Shown: positions 4,141-63,366 of the stretch, one piece after another
Position numbering within the stretch: the first letter of the stretch is position 1
How the letters are laid out: every line of letters begins with the position of its first letter
Source: Xanthostigma xanthostigma
Lineage: Eukaryota > Arthropoda > Insecta > Raphidioptera > Raphidiidae
NCBI GenBank assembly: GCA_963575645.1
Contig: OY754467.1
Coordinates: 8,866,001-8,930,000, forward strand
Direction: 5' to 3'
Length of the DNA stretch: 64,000 bases
Notes under the pieces: generated by a model
The model's input: only the letters and a program-made list of their open reading frames with translations
Told to the model about the DNA's origin: nothing
Databases searched by the model: none
Made by a program: the position numbers and the translations under genes

Positions 4141-4275
4141 TTCAGGGCCTATCAAAAAATAAAATAACTGTATACACCGTGGACATAACTGTGTCCATCG
4201 TGGGCACAACTGTATCCACCGTTTATAAAAAAACACTTCACGTAATCAATGGACGTTCCCTTAGTTAAACTCGTA

Positions 4276-5116
4276 TACAGGGTGTCCCATTAAGAATGGG
4301 ACATAGAACAACCGCAGATTCTCCAATTCAAAATAAAACAATTAAGCGAAATATGCTTAGATAAAATGTTACTCGTTTCCGAAATACGGGGTGTTGAAGT
4401 CGAAAACTGAAAAATTATTAATGTCCATAATTTTTTTAATACACCGTATAATTTTACTCAAATCGGCACACTTGTTAAATATCATAAAATGCACCTAAGA
4501 ATAAAAAAATTAGTTCAGTACGCTCTACCAGTGGCGTACGGCAGGAGTAAGTAATGCTTGTACCCCTTCTAAATGTTACGCCGCTGTCTAAATTTTAATT
4601 TTGACTATAATAATTTTAATTTTTTTGATATTTTCTAAGTCAATAATGTACACTTGTTAGTTTGTTGTATAGTCATTGGTTTTCGAGATATTCGCAGTTT
4701 TTTAAGACAGAATTGTAAAAATGAACATTATTAATAATAATACAAATAAAATCTATATATATATATCGTATGGTCTGAGAAATTGGTCGACAATTTTATT
4801 TACTTGAATACAAATAAAAAGTACATGTCTCTCTATCTTTAACTGCGAATATCTCGAAAACCAATGACTTTACAACAAACTAACAAGTGTACATTATTGA
4901 CTTAGAAAATATCAAAAAAATTAAAATTATAGTCAAAATTAAAATTTAGACAGCGGCGTAACATTTAGAAGGGGTACAAGCATTACTTACTCCTGCCGTA
5001 CGCCACTGGTAGAGCGAGTAACATTTTATCTAAGCATATTTCGTTTAATCGTTTTATTTTGAATTGGAGAATCTGCGGTTGTTCTATGTCCCATTCTTAA
5101 TGGGACACCCTGCATA
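4276..5116. mobile_element. Long foldback element, TACAGGGTGTCCC family, copy 1
   Basis: Flanked by TA and ending in TACAGGGTGTCCCATT and its inverse. The whole element is close to one palindrome with arms of ~400 bases. The right arm lacks about 130 bases present in the left: it jumps from GGTAGAGCG to AGTAACATTTTATC. A fuller copy is at 57477-58386. TA flanks and CAGGGTG ends suggest IS630/Tc1/mariner mobilisation, which is inference. Confidence 0.85.
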
Positions 5117-5269
5117 CAAATATCACTGCATTGCGTATGCCGCTTAACATAAATAAGGGGGTGGGAACACGACGATAATTTATTCATATTTCGATGTTGC
5201 GTATAGGGTAGATTATAGGCTCTGAGGAAGTGAAGACATAGTTTTACAGTAATTATTAGAAATACCAAC

Positions 5270-17890: not shown

Positions 17891-20800
17891 CTGCAACAAA
17901 AACGAACGTTAAATATGAAATTAAGCGATCCACTGGGAATAACGAAATTCGCCAAAAAGCTTACAAACATTAAAACGGACGAGAAAAAAAAACAAACAAA
18001 AAAACATTTATATCATCATTATATTTTATTAGTTTTCCTTCAAAAAGAAAAAAAAAACATTATTTTTTATATGACACAAAAACACTCATTGATTTTCTTT
18101 GATACAAGCTTGGAGTGTTTTACGATTCGAGACGATTAATTTATCGCTACGCGCCATTAGCTGGAATTACTTATCGTTACATCATCAATAAATATTATAT
18201 CGATATATAAATAGTATCAAATATTCACTCGATTAATTTGAGTTCAATTTTATACCGATAGATCGATAGCTGAATGATTCGACAATTTTACGTTTATGTG
18301 AACCTACACATTAAAATGTATGCATAACAGCAGGTACGGTAAAAAAAAAGACGGGTTGCACTCCGGGAGTGCCGGCAGAAGTGAAAACTTGAATATTAAC
18401 GTCTTACGAATTTTCGATCAAAATGGTTTGTATCATAGATTGCATTTTTATGTACGATATTTCAACGCTAGATGTTTAACGTTGTATAAATAAAAGTTTT
18501 CGTCTTACGCATTTTCGATCAGGATACGTGACCCTGACGCGAGTTTTACGCTAAAGAAGTTTTCACTTAAAAAAAAAAAAAACCTGTATAAAAATAAGCA
18601 ATAAAAACTAGCGATTCGACTTCGCCTGAATTTGTAGATTGCCACCGTTTTTTCGTCGGCTTACGTTGCAAAATTGGTCTCCACGAAAAGCGATTTTATT
18701 TTAACGCGATATTATATAGCCTATGTGCTTCCTGAACGTCCATTCTAAATATTGGTGGAAAAAAAATTTTGAAATCGGATGAGTAGTTTCGGAGATTACC
18801 GCCTACATCCAAACTTTACCTCTTTATAAAATTAGTATAGACTCCATAATCAATATAGGTGTTCAATAAATACAATTATCGACCAATTTTTCAGACAATA
18901 TATTAACAAAAAATATAATTAATACATTAACGTTTCGATCCGGATAATATAGGTGTTATTGTTAACAAAATAGTTTGTGTTTTTTTTTATTGTCACCAGA
19001 TGTCCAGGTTCCCTTACCTAACTTGACTAGTTTTTTTAATTACTACCAGATGCCGTTTTTTTAACTTATTGTTATCCAGTCACGGCAAAATCGGGAAGGG
19101 GGGGATGGGATTATTTAAAAATTATGTACAAAAATTATTTGATATTAACCGGATTCCGTAGGCTATTTAGTTTAGAAACTAATTTAAAATTAATGTATAA
19201 GAAAACGAAGCTTTTTATTATTTAATTTTGAATAACGGCAGGTAGAACTAAATAAATACAAAAAATAAACGCCATCGCACGGAAAAAAATGTATTAATTA
19301 ATTAAATGTGAAATTAAAATAACAATAGACGTCATCATACGTTAAAACCATCAATTAGTAAAAAAAAAAATAAATAAAAACAGTAGGTACCCTTGAATAT
19401 ATTATTTATTATATAATATGAGAGTTCAGAATACAGTAGACCCCCGGTAATTCGGCCCCTGTCTAATCCGGCACCCCCTGTAATCCAACATGGTCTATTA
19501 TTTATTATTGAATATTTTTTTGACAATCTTCGCTAATGCATGATATATATAACATATAGAAATCTTATCATTGGATCTGTAATTTGTCAGATTACAAGGT
19601 ACTCTTTTGTAAAAAATTCCGGACTATAGGGGGTCTTAGGCAGTACTCTATAATCCGACAAATTCGATAGTCCGACACTGCCCTGCAAAATGTTTGTCGG
19701 ATTACCAGGGGTCCACTGTATCTACTTCCACAAATGTTGAAAACTGAGTGTAGATAAACATTCCTCTTTTGTTTTAATCAACTTTTTCAGCTAAATTAAT
19801 AAATATTGCAAAAGTGTTCACAAATAAGTGGTTTTAACGCACAAGGTAGAAAAAAGGCTATTTTTTATTGCGAAAGAGTTAGTCATTTAACGGAGATTAA
19901 AATTTTTTTAAAGCAACCGAGGATATTTTACTTTTGAGGAAATGCTTTTCTAGTTCATTAGTCCTGTAGATGCTCTCAGATGTCTCTTAATATCATGTGG
20001 CAATAAAATAAAATAATACGTCTAAAAGTTTGTTTTTTTTCTAACTCTTTTACTAGCTTCGTTTTCACTTAGTATATTTTGTGGCAGAATTCAGCAGTTA
20101 AGGAGGTTGAGCCGTTTTACGAAGATAATGAAAAAAATCTGAAATAAAGTTTTTCTATTAGATTTTTTTATGACAAAATTTTCTGTAAAAAATCCACTCT
20201 CATTAGGAGATTTATAAAGTTAAAAATTAAAAAAAACTTTTACATGTAGTCTTATGGAAAATATGTCAACCTAGCATGCAAACGGTACATTTTAATTTTT
20301 TGCAAATAACCAAATAATGTCAGCAGTTCCGAAAACTAAATATGTAAAGCATCGATGTCTTACGCATATTTTAATATTTTTTCCAATTTAATTAGGAGAC
20401 TTTTAATCAATAAAAAAAATTATTAAATCTTAGCACTTTTCGATTATGGACTTTTATTCTTGACAATTTTAACAATTTTAACTGAATTTTCAACTTTTTA
20501 ATGATTTAATTTTTATTTTTATTACTTCTAATTTCTTTTTTTAATTATTTACTGCAAAAAATGTATAAAATACAGATATTTACATAAATTTATTTTTTCT
20601 AACCTAACTTTGTACAAAAAATTCAAAAGTTAATCCATTAAGTAAATTACTGAAATAATTAATTAATATTAAAAAAATTATTTATTTATGCCTTTATGAC
20701 AATAATTTATTGGTATCATCGACTTATAACCGTTTGTAAAAATTTATTATGGAAAAGTTCCCATTTAGAATTCGACTTACTTTTGATTGGGACTGTAACG

Positions 20801-32800: not shown

Positions 32801-35800
32801 TTATCTTGTCGATCAGCGTCCACAGCTGGCTGGCATCGGGATCTGTTGGATTTCGAAGCGGGTCGCAGGCGCCTCGTTGAGTCACCATGCCTACCAGCAT
32901 CGCTGCGATGCACACGACCATCAGCGCGGACGAAAACAGGAAAATGACCGCTACTCCCCTATTAAACCAAAAACATTTCATATATTAGATAACTGCGCAT
33001 ACAATATTCTGTAATTCAGTTCTTAGTAAAGATGGAACGACATCGATAATTATCAATGTTTTTGACTATCAAACGTTATTGATAGTTTGATATTATTTAG
33101 TTTGGATTTGATCTGCTGTGTTGTTGGTTCGTTTCAAAGATAATAAATGCAAGCTAATTTTCCTGAAAAGCTGATTCTTTTTATTAAATATCTTTTAATC
33201 TAGTCAGGCACTACACTTTTTAATTTTTTTAATTTCTTTATTAACGTCTTAACTTTTAATTAGTTAATTAGATAGTTTTTTTTTTCATTTTCTTCGACAA
33301 CTTTGGGTGAAAGTTATGAAAACATGACGCCGATCCGTCGCTTTGCAATAAGACCAATGTTAGTATGCTTACTTTTGAAGTCAATTATTTATTTAAATAG
33401 TCGGTTAACCCTCCCTCAAATTTTCAGAATTTGTTTAGATGTATTTAAACTTCATATAAAAAAAGAATCAAGTCTATTTTTCCAAATTACTATTGTGTTT
33501 ATATCTCTATACTAATATATAAAGCTGAAGAGTTTGTTTGTTTGTTTGAACGCGTTAATCTCAGGAACTACTGGTTCAAATTGAAAAAATTTTTTTGTTG
33601 GATAGTCCGTTTATCGAGGAAGACTATAGGCTATATAAAATCAGGCTACGACCATTAGGAGCGGAGCATTAATGAAAAATGTTGCAAAATGTATCTCAAA
33701 AATAAGCTTCTATTCAGGTGAAATGCACTAACTAAATATACTCATATTAGCGTTGCCAGAATACAACGCCGGCTAGCTCAATCGGTAGAGCACACGACTG
33801 TCAATATTAGGGTCGTGGGTTCGAGCCCTACGTTGGGCGAATACATTTTTATTTTCTACATTGCTTTCTTCTAAAGCTTACATTTTTTAATTTTATTTAA
33901 TTAATTAAAAAAAAATTATTAGTTAAAAAAAGTATAAATACTGCTTTTTATCGACAAAAACTTTTGAACGGTAACTCTGATCATCATAAAATTTGGACAC
34001 AACATTCATCTCGGTAAACTAAGATGAATGTGTGTACTCATGTTCCTCCCTTCCCCATTCGTTTTTTTACACCCGGGTGAAACCGGGCGGGACCGCTAGT
34101 CCTTAATAAAACATTTGGAGTTATTTAACGAAATTTTGAAAACTACTGTTAGTTTGGTTACCGATTATCGATAACTGTCGATAATTTCTCCACCTCTAGT
34201 AGATAGTAGGTTTTGCATTAAAATACTCACAGCATTAGAAACTTGCTCCCGGCACCTTTGTTGCAGCAATCGTCGCCGTAGCCGTCCGGCCTTTTGCCAC
34301 AAATTCCGCACATAAGACCGCACGAAATGCACAGCACAATGAGAAGTAGCACCGAACTAATAGCCAGGCCGGCGTACCACCGATAAATTGAATATTTCTG
34401 AATGTATTCGTCGGCTTTATTGATCGAACCCTGATCGTTGATATCGTGCGACGCCCGTCGCAGGATATGGGTGAAGTTGTTGACTTTCTCCTTTATCGCT
34501 TCACCTTAAAAAATTCAGTTCCGGCTTCAATACAAACTTAGTTAACATTTTTACCGATAGAGGCGTGTAAAAAAGAGACACAGAGCGATAAAAAATATTC
34601 GACTCTCTTCTAATATTCTGAAGAAATGTTGTGCTTATGATATACAACTGGTAGATGTAATAAATAGTCTGGATATTTCAGTTATATTTTACGACAAGAC
34701 ATTTGTCGTTTTGTTATTTTTTTTTTTTTTATTTAAAAGTTAAAACGTTTCGCCTAAAAAGGCATCATCAGTTTATCTCTTTTAACTGTTCTTCTTATAC
34801 TTTCTTTTTATAGAAATCCATTATAACCGATGATGCCTTTTTAAGCGAAACGTTTTAACTTTTAAATAAAAAAAAAAAAATAATAACAAAATGACAAATG
34901 TCTTGTCGTAAAATATAACTGAAATATCCAGACTCTATTTATTCTGAAGAAAGTTAATCGGATATCGACTGTATCAGAGCTCTTATCAACAAAATTATCT
35001 GCTTGTCTTTGGTGGTGACAGCGTTCAACAGGTTTCTGTCAAAAACAGTACCATAATTATTCTATATAAAAACCGAAACTTACCCGCATCAGAAATGGCC
35101 TTTTTCACTTTTGGAATGCTTACGTTGACGGTTTTTTGAATTTCTAATTTGATGTTATCGAACGTTTGTTTGCCTTTCTGAACTTCTTCGGTGATGTTAT
35201 TCAACAACAGTTCCGAAATATTGTTTAGATATTCAGAGACATCTGGTAACTACAAACAGAATTACAATCGTCAATCAAAGAAATCTTTTGAAATATAACT
35301 GTGTGCGCGTAGATAATTGACTAACTGAAAAACAAAACAAAGTGCAAACGTTTCTCTCTTTTTTTTTGTACTCACCCTTGGAAAATATCTATCAAGGTTC
35401 TGCATGAAAATAAATCAAATTACTGTTAACATTCACGACTTGCGTATAAATAATTTTATGCTTTCTTTTATTATTAGAGAAGAAATTACAATTTTATACC
35501 ACTTATTCGAACTAGAGATGAGCTACGGAAATCGATGTCGATGCTTTTTCCATCGATGTTTTACAACCAATGTTTCTGCGGCATCGATGTTTCAAAGCGA
35601 TGTTTTTAAACGCTTTATATTAGTTTGGGTTGTAACTAACTATGTATGTATGCATGTATGCATGTAACGGAATCTTTGAGCATAATTTTCACCAATTTCC
35701 CGAAGTCTGATTAATTTGAAACTTTGCATACGTATCAAGGACCGATGACAATGCAATAATTTGATAACAGTTTCCCATTATCCTTATTAGGACCCCCAGG

Positions 35801-46703: not shown

Positions 46704-47047
46704 TCTTATACTAATATATAAAGCTGAAGAGTTTGTTTGTTTGGTTGCTTGAACACGCTAATCTCAGAAACTACTGGTTCGAAATGAAAAAAAAAATTTT
46801 TTTTTGATTGTCCGTTTATCGAGGCTATAGGCTATATAATATCACGCTACGACCAAAAGGAGCGGAGCATCAATGAAAAAAGTAACTCAAAATTTGTCCG
46901 TCCGACAAAAATTTTTGAACGATAATTCCGATATCATGAAATTTGGACACAACATTAATCTCTGTAAACTAAGATGAACGTGCGTAATCATGTTCCTCCC
47001 CCTCATTCGTTCTTTTGCACCCGGGTGAAACCGGGCGGGACCGCTAG
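46704..47047 (+). mobile_element. Non-autonomous Helitron, short form without tRNA-like insert
   Basis: 5' TCTTATACTAATATATAAAG, 3' CACCCGGGTGAAACCGGG hairpin then CGGGACCGCTAG and T. The AAAATTTGTCC...TTTTTGAACG part is continuous where the long copies have ~250 extra bases. Confidence 0.88.
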
Positions 47048-49617: not shown

Positions 49618-51329
49618 GTAACGCTTTTTTTCTTATTTTTTTTAAACGGATTATCAAGGCCACCTGCTGTCAGAGTTGTCCGGGTCTAGTACCGATTGAT
49701 TTTTTCAATTTATTATCGTTTAAATTCAATTGAGGCTGGAATCACCGATTCTATAACTGGAGATTTTAAAAAAACGGGACCTCTAGAACTTGGCTATTCC
49801 CTGCAAGACCAACAAATATTTTATTATAATTTTATAACTTACTAGCGGTCCCGCCCGGTTTCACCCGGGTGCAAAAAACGAGTTGGGGGGGGAGGTTCAT
49901 GAGTACACACATTCATCTTAGTTTACCAAGATGAATGCTGTGTCCAAATTTCATGATGATCGGAGTTACCCGTTCAAAAGTTTTTTTTTCGGACGGACAC
50001 ATTTTGAGTTACATTTTGCAACATTTTTCATTGATGCTCCGCTCCTATTAATCGTGACGTGATATTATATAGCCTATAGCCTTCCTCGAGGCTGTCCAAC
50101 AAATTTTTTTTTTCAATTCGAACCAGTAATTCCTGAGATTAGCGCGTTCAACCAACCAAACAAACAAACACTCTTCAGCTTTATATATTAGTTTAGATAT
50201 AAGAATCTTCCATTAATCATTATTAAGTGTTTTTTCTTTACTTACAAATTAAAAAAAAACTCTATCAACTTATACCACGACTTTTTATGCAAAATGTAAC
50301 ACTTCTAAGAGTTTTCATAAGATGCAAATTATCTTATACTTAATGAGTATTTACGAAACTATAACGTTTAGGAAAAACATTTATTTACAATTAAGTTTCT
50401 TGTAAAAATAAACAGAACAATAAACCGTTATGAAAAGCATAGCATTATAATAGGAAAAAAACGTTATAGCACATATTATCTCTTCTGTGCATGCGCCAAT
50501 TTTCCTTTTGATACATTAAAATTTGCTTTCGAACCGCTAAGCCGTTTGTCCTGTATCATGCCCGCTGACAAACAGACATATGAGGAGACGTTTTGGACTC
50601 AGAGGACTTCAAAACGAAAAAATATTATGAAATTTTGACCGAAATTAGTGCCTTTCTCTATTTGTTTAGTTGGAATGGTATTATACAATATTTTTATTCG
50701 CAGGTAACGAAGCAAAACACATCTGGAAGAATCTGCGTGACTGCTACCGAATATCGATGAAAAAACAAAAGAGCTGCAGGAACGGCGACACCTCTAAAAC
50801 GTCGAAAATCTGGAAGTTCCACAATCAGATGGGTTTCCTGTCGCCGTACATGAAAGATCGGCCGAGAAACAACAAATTCCTGTACGTCTCCGAAGAAAAT
50901 ATTGAAGCCGACGAGACAAACAATTATACAGACGAAGATGTCAACAACGACGCTCAAGAAATTATCGATGTCGACGAAATCGACTCGAAAAAAATGCGAT
51001 TCGACGACTCGAGAACGGACGAGCACATGCACTTTCTTCACCAGCCGACTATCCACGAAGAACAACGAATCGAAGACGAACAGCCGATGTTCATCAACGA
51101 AATGGTGAAACCGTCTCAGGACAGTCTGAAACTGTTTTTCGATTCGATGTACGCGGCGACAAGGGATTTACCGACGAGTTTACAGCGCGTCGTTAAGAAG
51201 AAGATCTTCGAAGCAGTTTCCGAAGCTGAAGAAGCAGCTGAAGAATCGACTGAAACGATAGACCGACAATTTCAACAGCAATCCGGTTATATGGGAATCC
51301 AAAATGCGAAACACGAATTGAACTTTTAA
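49473..51329 (+). CDS. MADF-BESS domain protein (Adf-1-like putative transcription regulator), two exons, 256 aa
   Basis: MADF domains are Myb/SANT-like DNA-binding modules of insect regulators such as Adf-1; BESS motifs mediate protein contacts, often dimerisation. Exon 1 is 49473-49617, exon 2 50704-51329; joining at TCG G/GT AAC keeps the frame and closes the MADF domain. MADF spans residues ~9-97 (RLIEYVRSHVVLYN, IWNDIARKCNF, then AKHIWKNLRDCYR and SKIWKFHNQMGFL). Residues ~105-150 are acidic. A BESS motif is at ~188-223 (DSLKLFFDSMYAATRDLPTS, then LQRVVKKKIFEAV). The ATG at 49473 is the first in frame next to RLIEYV. The intron holds a Helitron. A likely poly(A) signal AATAAA is at 51977. 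Nuclear localisation is inferred from the family. No target is known. Confidence 0.9.
49842..50197 (-). mobile_element. Non-autonomous Helitron in MADF gene intron, short form
   Basis: On the minus strand: 5' TCTAAACTAATATATAAAGC, 3' CACCCGGGTGAAACCGGG then CGGGACCGCTAG and T. Lacks the tRNA-like insert. Confidence 0.88.
50704..51329 (+). CDS. MADF-BESS gene exon 2
   Basis: Acceptor TTTTTATTCGCAG. Begins NEAKHIWKNLRDCYRISMKK after the split Gly codon and ends NAKHELNF TAA. Confidence 0.92.
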
Positions 51330-58440: not shown

Positions 58441-58757
58441 CTAGCGGTCCCGCCCGGTTTCACCCGGGTGCAAAAGAACGAATGTAGGTGAGGGACATGA
58501 GTACGCACGTTCATCTTAGTTTACCGAGATGAATGTTGTGTCCAAATTTCATGATGATCGGAGTTACCGTTCAAAAGTTTTTGTAGGACGGACAAATTTT
58601 GAGTTACATTTTTCATTGATGCTCCGCTCCTATTGGTCGTAGCGTGATATATAGCCTACATAGCCTTCCTCTATAAATGAACTATGAAACAAAAAAAACA
58701 TTCAATTCGAACCAGTAGTTCCTGAGATTAGCCAAACAAACAAACTCTTCAGCTATA
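58441..58757 (-). mobile_element. Non-autonomous Helitron, short form, cut by a foldback insertion
   Basis: Minus-strand 3' end CACCCGGGTGAAACCGGG, then CGGGACCGCTAG. The 5' part ends at AGCTGAAGAGTTTG; the TA-flanked foldback at 58758-59231 is inserted there, and TATAGTAGG-like remnants continue beyond 59231. Confidence 0.8.
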
Positions 58758-59851: not shown

Positions 59852-60107
59852 TTAGCGGGCTGGTCCGTCTTCGCCCAAATTTATAGATTGCCACCGTTGT
59901 TTCGTCGACTTTGGTTGCAAAATTGGTCTCCACGAAAAGAGCTTTTATTTTAACGCGATAATATATAGCCTATGTCCATCTTGAAAGTTCATTCTAAATA
60001 TTGGTGAAAAAATTTTTGAAATCGGATGAGTAGTTTCAGAGATTACCTACTGTATCCAAACGTATACAAGCTTTACTTCTTTATAATATTAGTATAAAAA
60101 GTATAGA
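59852..60107 (-). mobile_element. Non-autonomous Helitron, second family, copy 2
   Basis: Minus strand starts TCTATACTTTTTATACTAAT and ends CCCGCTAA before T. Shares ACTACTCATCCGATTTCAAA and TTAACGCGAT-type blocks with 18608-18841. Confidence 0.7.
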
Positions 60108-62768: not shown

Positions 62769-63366
62769 CTAGCGGTTCCGCCCCGTTTCACCCGGGTGCA
62801 AAAGAACGAATGGGGAAGGAAGGGACATGAGTACACACATTCATCTTAGTTTACCGACATGAATGTTGTGTCCAAATTTCATGATGATCGGAGTTATCGT
62901 TAAAAAAAAGCAGTATTTATACTTTTTTTAACTAATAATTTTTTTTAATTAATTAAATAAAATTAAAATAAATTTTAATGTAAGCCTTAGAAGAAATCAA
63001 TGTAGAAAATAAAAAATAAATAAAAATGCATTCGCCCAACGTAGGGCTCGAACCCACGAGACCCTGGTATTGACAGTGTTGTGCTCTACCGATTGCGCTA
63101 GCCGGCGTTGTATTCTTACATCGCTAATATGAGTATACTTAGTGCATTTCACCTGAATGGAAGCTTATTTTTTAGATACATTTGGAACATTTTTCATTAA
63201 TGCTCCGCTCCTAATGGTCGTAGCCTGATTTTATATAGCCTATAGTCTTCCTCGATAAATGAGCTATCCAACAAAAAATTTTGAACCAGTAGTTCCTGAG
63301 ATTAACGCGTTCAAACAAACAAACAAACAAACAAACAAACTCTTCAGCTTTATATTTTAGTATAGA
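62769..63366 (-). mobile_element. Non-autonomous Helitron carrying a tRNA-Lys-like sequence, copy 2
   Basis: Minus strand starts TCTATACTAAAATATAAAGC, ends CACCCGGGTGAAACGGGG then CGGAACCGCTAG and T. The ~250-base insert with its flanks (TTACATTAAAATTTATTTTA side and AAGCTTCCATTCAGGTGAAA side) matches copy 1 at 33506-34099. Confidence 0.88.
63033..63107 (-). tRNA. tRNA-Lys-like pseudogene inside Helitron, copy 2
   Basis: Minus strand GCTAGCGCAATCGGTAGAGC, loop CTGTCAA, then CTCGTGGGTTCGAGCCCTAC and GTTGGGCG. It carries the same loop change as copy 1 and likewise has an unpaired anticodon stem. Confidence 0.7.

Follow-up and report, generated by a model that had tools for sequence, protein, structure and literature searches.

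Helitron copies in the window

The window, by which is meant the whole 64-kb stretch of DNA analysed here, harbours five copies of one non-autonomous Helitron, two in a long form that carries an insert with a tRNA-Lys-like body and three in a short form that lacks it, together with pieces of a sister Helitron. The features are as follows.

33506..34099, +, long-form non-autonomous Helitron, copy 1, with termini TC...CTAG
33702..33951, +, insert of copy 1 (approximate edges, from comparison with the short form)
33767..33839, +, tRNA-Lys-like body of copy 1, with loop CTGTCAA at 33798-33804
34072..34087, +, 3' hairpin of copy 1, CCCGG(GTGAAA)CCGGG, 5 bp, 12 nt from the element end
62769..63366, -, long-form Helitron, copy 2, reading A, then TC...CTAG, then T
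62912..63169, -, insert of copy 2 (approximate edges, with a private deletion at the right edge)
63033..63107, -, tRNA-Lys-like body of copy 2, 75 nt, with two extra bases
46704..47047, +, short-form Helitron without insert
49842..50197, -, short-form Helitron without insert
58441..58757/58759, -, short-form Helitron without insert, 5' end missing
18702-18814 and 59951-60096, -, tRNA-less sister Helitron pieces

Both long copies open with TCTATACTA; copy 1 closes with CCGCTAG, is preceded by C and followed by T, and copy 2 closes with CTAG and is flanked by A and T. An earlier sequence-only reading had described two long and three short copies, the long ones sharing an insert of about 250 bases with a tRNA-Lys-like body and the loop CTGTCAA. 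All five copies were recovered at the same positions, with the insert (~250 bp) and the loop in both long copies and no insert in any of the three short ones. The stability of the 3' hairpin of copy 1 equals that of shuffled sequences (z -0.03).

The tRNA-like body of copy 1 is 85% identical to a tRNA-Lys-CTT sequence used for comparison, with 5 of 7 pairs formed in the acceptor stem and 2 of 5 in the anticodon stem. ARAGORN, run with the bacterial code, calls no tRNA in the window, nor does Rfam report a tRNA match there at its gathering scores, so that the two inserts are decayed tRNAs and not genes.

Two further features of the window were recorded. Near-perfect inverted repeats (352 nt, 99%) lie at 57473-57824/58039-58390 and at 4274-5127, and with related stretches elsewhere in the window they perhaps constitute a fold-back element family. 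An open frame of 219 aa at 50670-51329 (+) matches MADF and BESS domains and is perhaps an exon of a transcription-factor-like gene.

Spread through the genome

Whole-genome searches covered 623 Mb in 28 contigs. The Helitron ends would suit an insect, probably a lepidopteran. With a long copy as the query, the 40 candidates scored out of 5,364 comprised the query itself and 39 copies at 93-95% identity, each spanning more than 97% of the query length. The tRNA likeness of the inserts is far beyond chance: the exact 22-mer GGTTCGAGCCCTACGTTGGGCG from the tRNA 3' half occurs at 907 places in the genome and its backward control at none. The first 30 of these loci in chromosome order were fetched whatever their surroundings, and every one is within the Helitron.

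The tRNA 3' half also exists in a version with CCCCAC, a 31-mer of which is found at 921 places. These were suspected of being native tRNA genes or a SINE; both of the two places read have Helitron backbone adjoining the insert, one of them (L091) with no recognisable 3' backbone within the 431 bases read. In total, the tRNA 3' half is present at no fewer than 1,828 exact-match places (907 plus 921, of which 32 were read). The two sets mix forms of the element, since a loop with the lysine anticodon CTT is found in 7 of the 66 CCCCAC places on contig C1, and 2 of the 30 loci read for the 22-mer (L049 and L057) hold a third and longer form, here designated XL.

The consensus of 49 full-length long copies has TC...CTAG termini, and 41 of these copies lie between A and T while 8 do not; the same flanks were found for 11 of 28 short copies, whose ends were less exactly set. 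The element has the TC and CTRR termini of a non-autonomous Helitron and is inserted between A and T with no target duplication. The Helitron_like_N domain has 89 matches in the genome, many with equal scores, and 32 of them lie in open frames of 1547-1575 aa (e.g. at C4:22521072, and three on contig C16 at C16:25398-74825); autonomous Helitrons look recently active. Two Helitron segments have no exact matches among viral contigs.

A probable single acquisition of the insert

The searches yielded 122 copies of the Helitron, of which 99 (57 long, 38 short, and 4 XL) entered a tree, the other 23 having too little of one end or duplicating the window copies (L001, L061). The tree was built on the Helitron backbone with the insert removed and is unrooted, and copies with an interior of more than 380 bases were classed as XL, two long copies lying close to that limit at 365-366. 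All 57 long copies fall on one side of a branch, with an ultrafast bootstrap of 96, a value that had not yet stabilised, and an SH-aLRT of 90. The genome search and tree that had been proposed for the long form thus place it as one group. The free tree explains the short form with three changes and XL with four. When the 38 short copies are constrained to one group, the resulting tree gains 3.55 lnL over the free tree and is not rejected (p-AU 0.54).

The junctions point the same way. One junction, CAAAATTTGTCCGTCCGACAAAAA, is common to all 38 short copies within 4 edits, its core GTCCGTCC being exact in 28 of them. The short copies are therefore not independent deletions, and the scatter of short copies with varied breakpoints that would have contradicted the sequence-only reading was not found. 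Both insert edges are present within 3 edits in 53 of the 57 long copies; the other four are without one edge, and these losses look like private deletions. The common edges and the single long-form group support the earlier proposal that the tRNA-like segment was acquired once and then moved with the Helitron, and hence that one Helitron subfamily acquired and spread it.

A longer form with a generally better tRNA

The XL form was read in five copies: L015:2494, L049:1173, L057:1090, L075:2652 (-), and L089 (-), in the last of which another repeat stands in place of the 5' part. In the four that have both parts the interior measures 413-460 bases, as against the usual ~279 in long copies. Across all five XL copies, identity to the tRNA-Lys-CTT used for comparison is 85-92%, and the anticodon is CTT in three and GTT in two, within the loops CTCTTAA (L075 and L089), CTCTTGA (L057), and CTGTTAA (L015 and L049). 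Rfam tRNA scores exceed the gathering score of 29 bits in L015 (43.7), L089 (34.0), and L057 (29.6) and fall below it in L075 (27.4) and L049 (27.1). The anticodon stem, with 1 to 3 of its 5 pairs, is imperfect in all five copies, so that no copy read shows an intact gene.

Among 58 long copies, the median identity to this tRNA-Lys-CTT is 84%, the loop is CTGTCAA (anticodon GTC) in 50, and on average the acceptor stem has 4.9 of its 7 pairs and the anticodon stem 1.2 of its 5. Their Rfam tRNA scores, among the matches listed, run from 24 to 31 bits, with L002 (24.6), L005 (24.1), and L015:1768 (24.1) below the gathering score and L057:109-181, a long copy with loop CTGTCAA, above it at 31.0. 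As this last copy outscores three of the five XL copies, the two forms overlap in tRNA quality. No Rfam tRNA match with E up to 1 is listed for L003, L031, L040, L091, and L092, all sources of long copies. Rfam matches to the miRNA families MIR476, mir-788, and mir-228 all fall under their own gathering scores and were set aside. XL, which is ~135-180 bp longer and has the better tRNA, appears to be the older of the two forms, and the long form its shortened descendant. The loop CTGTCAA is shared, as the sequence-only reading had it; within the series CTCTTAA, CTGTTAA, CTGTCAA it looks derived from the canonical CTCTTAA rather than characteristic of the source gene.

The 3' part of L075 and L089 is unlike that of the other three XL copies. 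Within it, a 61-base stretch is identical in the two, which are otherwise ~86% alike, and a 31-base piece of this stretch, used as an XL 3' marker, has 287 exact places in the genome. The part upstream of the tRNA in L089 was considered as source DNA and was ruled out; because it matches another repeat found in L015, L089 was taken as a truncated copy.

A CTT loop, GACTCTTAAT, together with an intact 3' half occurs at 301 places in the genome. For 36 of the first 100 listed, a listed XL marker follows 261-322 bp downstream, in every case on the same strand, where ~0.06 would be expected. These places at least are therefore dispersed elements and not native genes; the remaining 64, which have no listed exact marker nearby, could include native genes.

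As to what preceded XL, a sister Helitron family represented by L052:2483-2623 (TCTATACTAATATTATAAAGAGG...) and by the two pieces in the window has the 5' part in common and another interior with no tRNA; the L052 copy aligns to the short form with a score of 129, against a maximum of 41 in 100 letter shuffles. Because the sister Helitrons show no tRNA, a tRNA-less element is favoured as the older state, and the short form as ancestral, though this is not proven. The opposite order, with XL as the old form and the short copies arising once through an internal deletion, would be allowed by the unrooted tree and by the similar divergence of the two forms from their own consensus (4.4% for XL, whose four copies make a poor consensus, and 4.5% for the short form). 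We consider it unlikely, however, in view of the tRNA-less sister families, a CGTC at the short junction that is not seen at XL edges, and the short-like bases that the XL copy L075 retains at its left edge.

Origin of the insert

A tRNA gene taken up along with flanking DNA accounts for the insert more readily than a SINE does. In long copies and in most of the XL ones, about 65 bp of common DNA precedes the tRNA. Runs of four or more T occur 7, 19, 60, 66, and 120 nt past the tRNA in the long consensus. No target duplication is detected beyond chance, the longest word common to the two edges of the long consensus being 6 bases (P 0.35 versus shuffles), and none of the 32 copies read shows the insert away from the Helitron backbone. 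The insert thus fails three SINE features, namely a tRNA head at the 5' end, a target duplication, and a body free of T4+ stops. That the insert might be a separate SINE with its own target duplications had been named as a finding that would overturn the sequence-only reading; it did not materialise.

An alternative nonetheless worth weighing is that a SINE derived from tRNA-Lys entered one Helitron by retroposition and travelled with it from then on. A Metulj SINE of subfamily 4 lies together with a Helitron-like element in Heliconius (PMC4016481), and SINEs have been described from several Lepidoptera (PMC8010984). Against such an origin stand the ~65 bp of common upstream DNA, the T-runs that from 7 nt past the tRNA would end a Pol III transcript, edge words of 6 bases at most, a length reached in 35% of shuffles, and the lack of any copy away from the backbone among the 32 read; we judge it quite unlikely.

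In our assessment it is probable that a Helitron took up a tRNA-Lys(CTT) gene with its flanks, that the resulting XL form gave rise to a decayed long form that multiplied, and that the tRNA is a passenger. A non-autonomous Helitron of ~345 bp would have taken up host DNA comprising the gene and its own 5' and 3' flanks, in place of a few bases between ...CAAAATTTGTC and CGACAAAAAC, conceivably by template switching or read-through during rolling-circle transposition. The first tRNA-bearing form would have been XL, about 135-180 bp longer and with a more complete tRNA. A descendant may then have lost part of the A+T-rich 3' flank, and the tRNA would have drifted, its loop passing from CTCTTAA through CTGTTAA to CTGTCAA and its acceptor and anticodon stems becoming damaged. 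This decayed form, represented by the long copies in the window, would have multiplied, presumably mobilised by Rep/helicase proteins from other loci of the genome. The search for a native source gene gave nothing, the genome having no exact match to a 55-mer of tRNA-Lys-CTT as known from other eukaryotes.

Passenger or functional tRNA

Divergence was compared in 31 long copies selected independently of the tRNA 22-mer. Outside CpG sites the tRNA stands at 0.0193, the two backbone parts at 0.0227 and 0.0192, and the remainder of the insert at 0.0263 and 0.0262; at CpG sites in the same copies the figure is 0.0387 for the tRNA versus 0.0259 and 0.0252 for the backbone. Across all 57 long copies, the non-CpG divergence of the tRNA part is 0.0298, compared with 0.0214 and 0.0277 for the backbone. 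The tRNA part is conserved no more than the backbone, and this together with the damaged stems indicates that it is probably a passenger.

Long copies show less divergence than short ones (median 2.5% versus 4.5%; among copies that were not top hits, and with 7 of the 57 long copies dropped through ties, 3.0%, n = 22, versus 6.2%, n = 9), so the long form seems to be the younger burst. This difference could suggest that the tRNA segment is retained for some use, such as Pol III transcription or an aid to transposition, and that it caused the long form to spread. The A and B boxes, which match the consensus in both long window copies, could be read in the same sense. Yet the tRNA is no more conserved than the backbone in the 31 copies or in all 57, a test that lends no support to the tRNA as a selected part, and the acceptor and anticodon stems are damaged across the 58 long copies examined; selection for use is accordingly the most doubtful of the explanations weighed here. 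The sequence-only reading had suggested that the boxes could make the copies Pol III-transcribed. With T-runs beginning ~7 nt past the tRNA, however, any such transcript should be a short tRNA-like RNA and not the element.

We would put forward with considerable reserve, as rather unlikely, a further idea: that the captured tRNA-Lys gene worked, and that some copies, the ~300 with the CTT loop before others, may be transcribed by Pol III into tRNA-like RNAs. If true, it would show plainly that a Helitron can take up a non-coding RNA gene and spread it en masse, and tRNA-like loci would form a pool throughout the genome.

Relation to known systems and implications

Helitrons carry host DNA, including pieces of host genes, and Hel-2 and Lep1 are lepidopteran non-autonomous Helitrons. 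Hel-2, which is described as prevalent in Lepidoptera, resembles the element in the window in its 5' TC, its 3' CTRR/CTAG, and its flanking A and T, although length and interior differ (PMC4344730). The word tRNA does not occur in the main text of that paper or in PMC6544945.

Another related case is a repeat of 21,461 copies in Heliconius melpomene in which Metulj SINE subfamily 4 and a Helitron-like element lie together (PMC4016481); there, as here, a tRNA-derived sequence has multiplied to thousands of copies alongside a Helitron-like element. Metulj is a SINE, however, whereas the insert of the window lacks the three SINE features and resembles a tRNA gene plus its flanks. In Arabidopsis, the tRNA-Cys genes likewise lie inside a Helitron annotation, but they form a local cluster with no reliable Helitron prediction over the tRNA genes, while the copies described here are dispersed and have Helitron ends.

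A 2023 paper remarked that a capture of this sort would have no precedent (PMC10701932). Searches of open-licence papers brought up no other tRNA-capturing Helitron, and a tRNA inside a Helitron is not described in the available portions of PMC8010984, PMC6685494, PMC4344730, and PMC6544945. New here are the XL form and the graded loop series CTCTTAA, CTGTTAA, CTGTCAA.

This graded series, from a near-complete tRNA to a decayed passenger, suggests that rolling-circle transposition can mobilise a Pol III gene. In such genomes, tRNA and SINE annotation may be inflated. The series also offers a natural test of whether tRNA genes carried by a transposon stay active.
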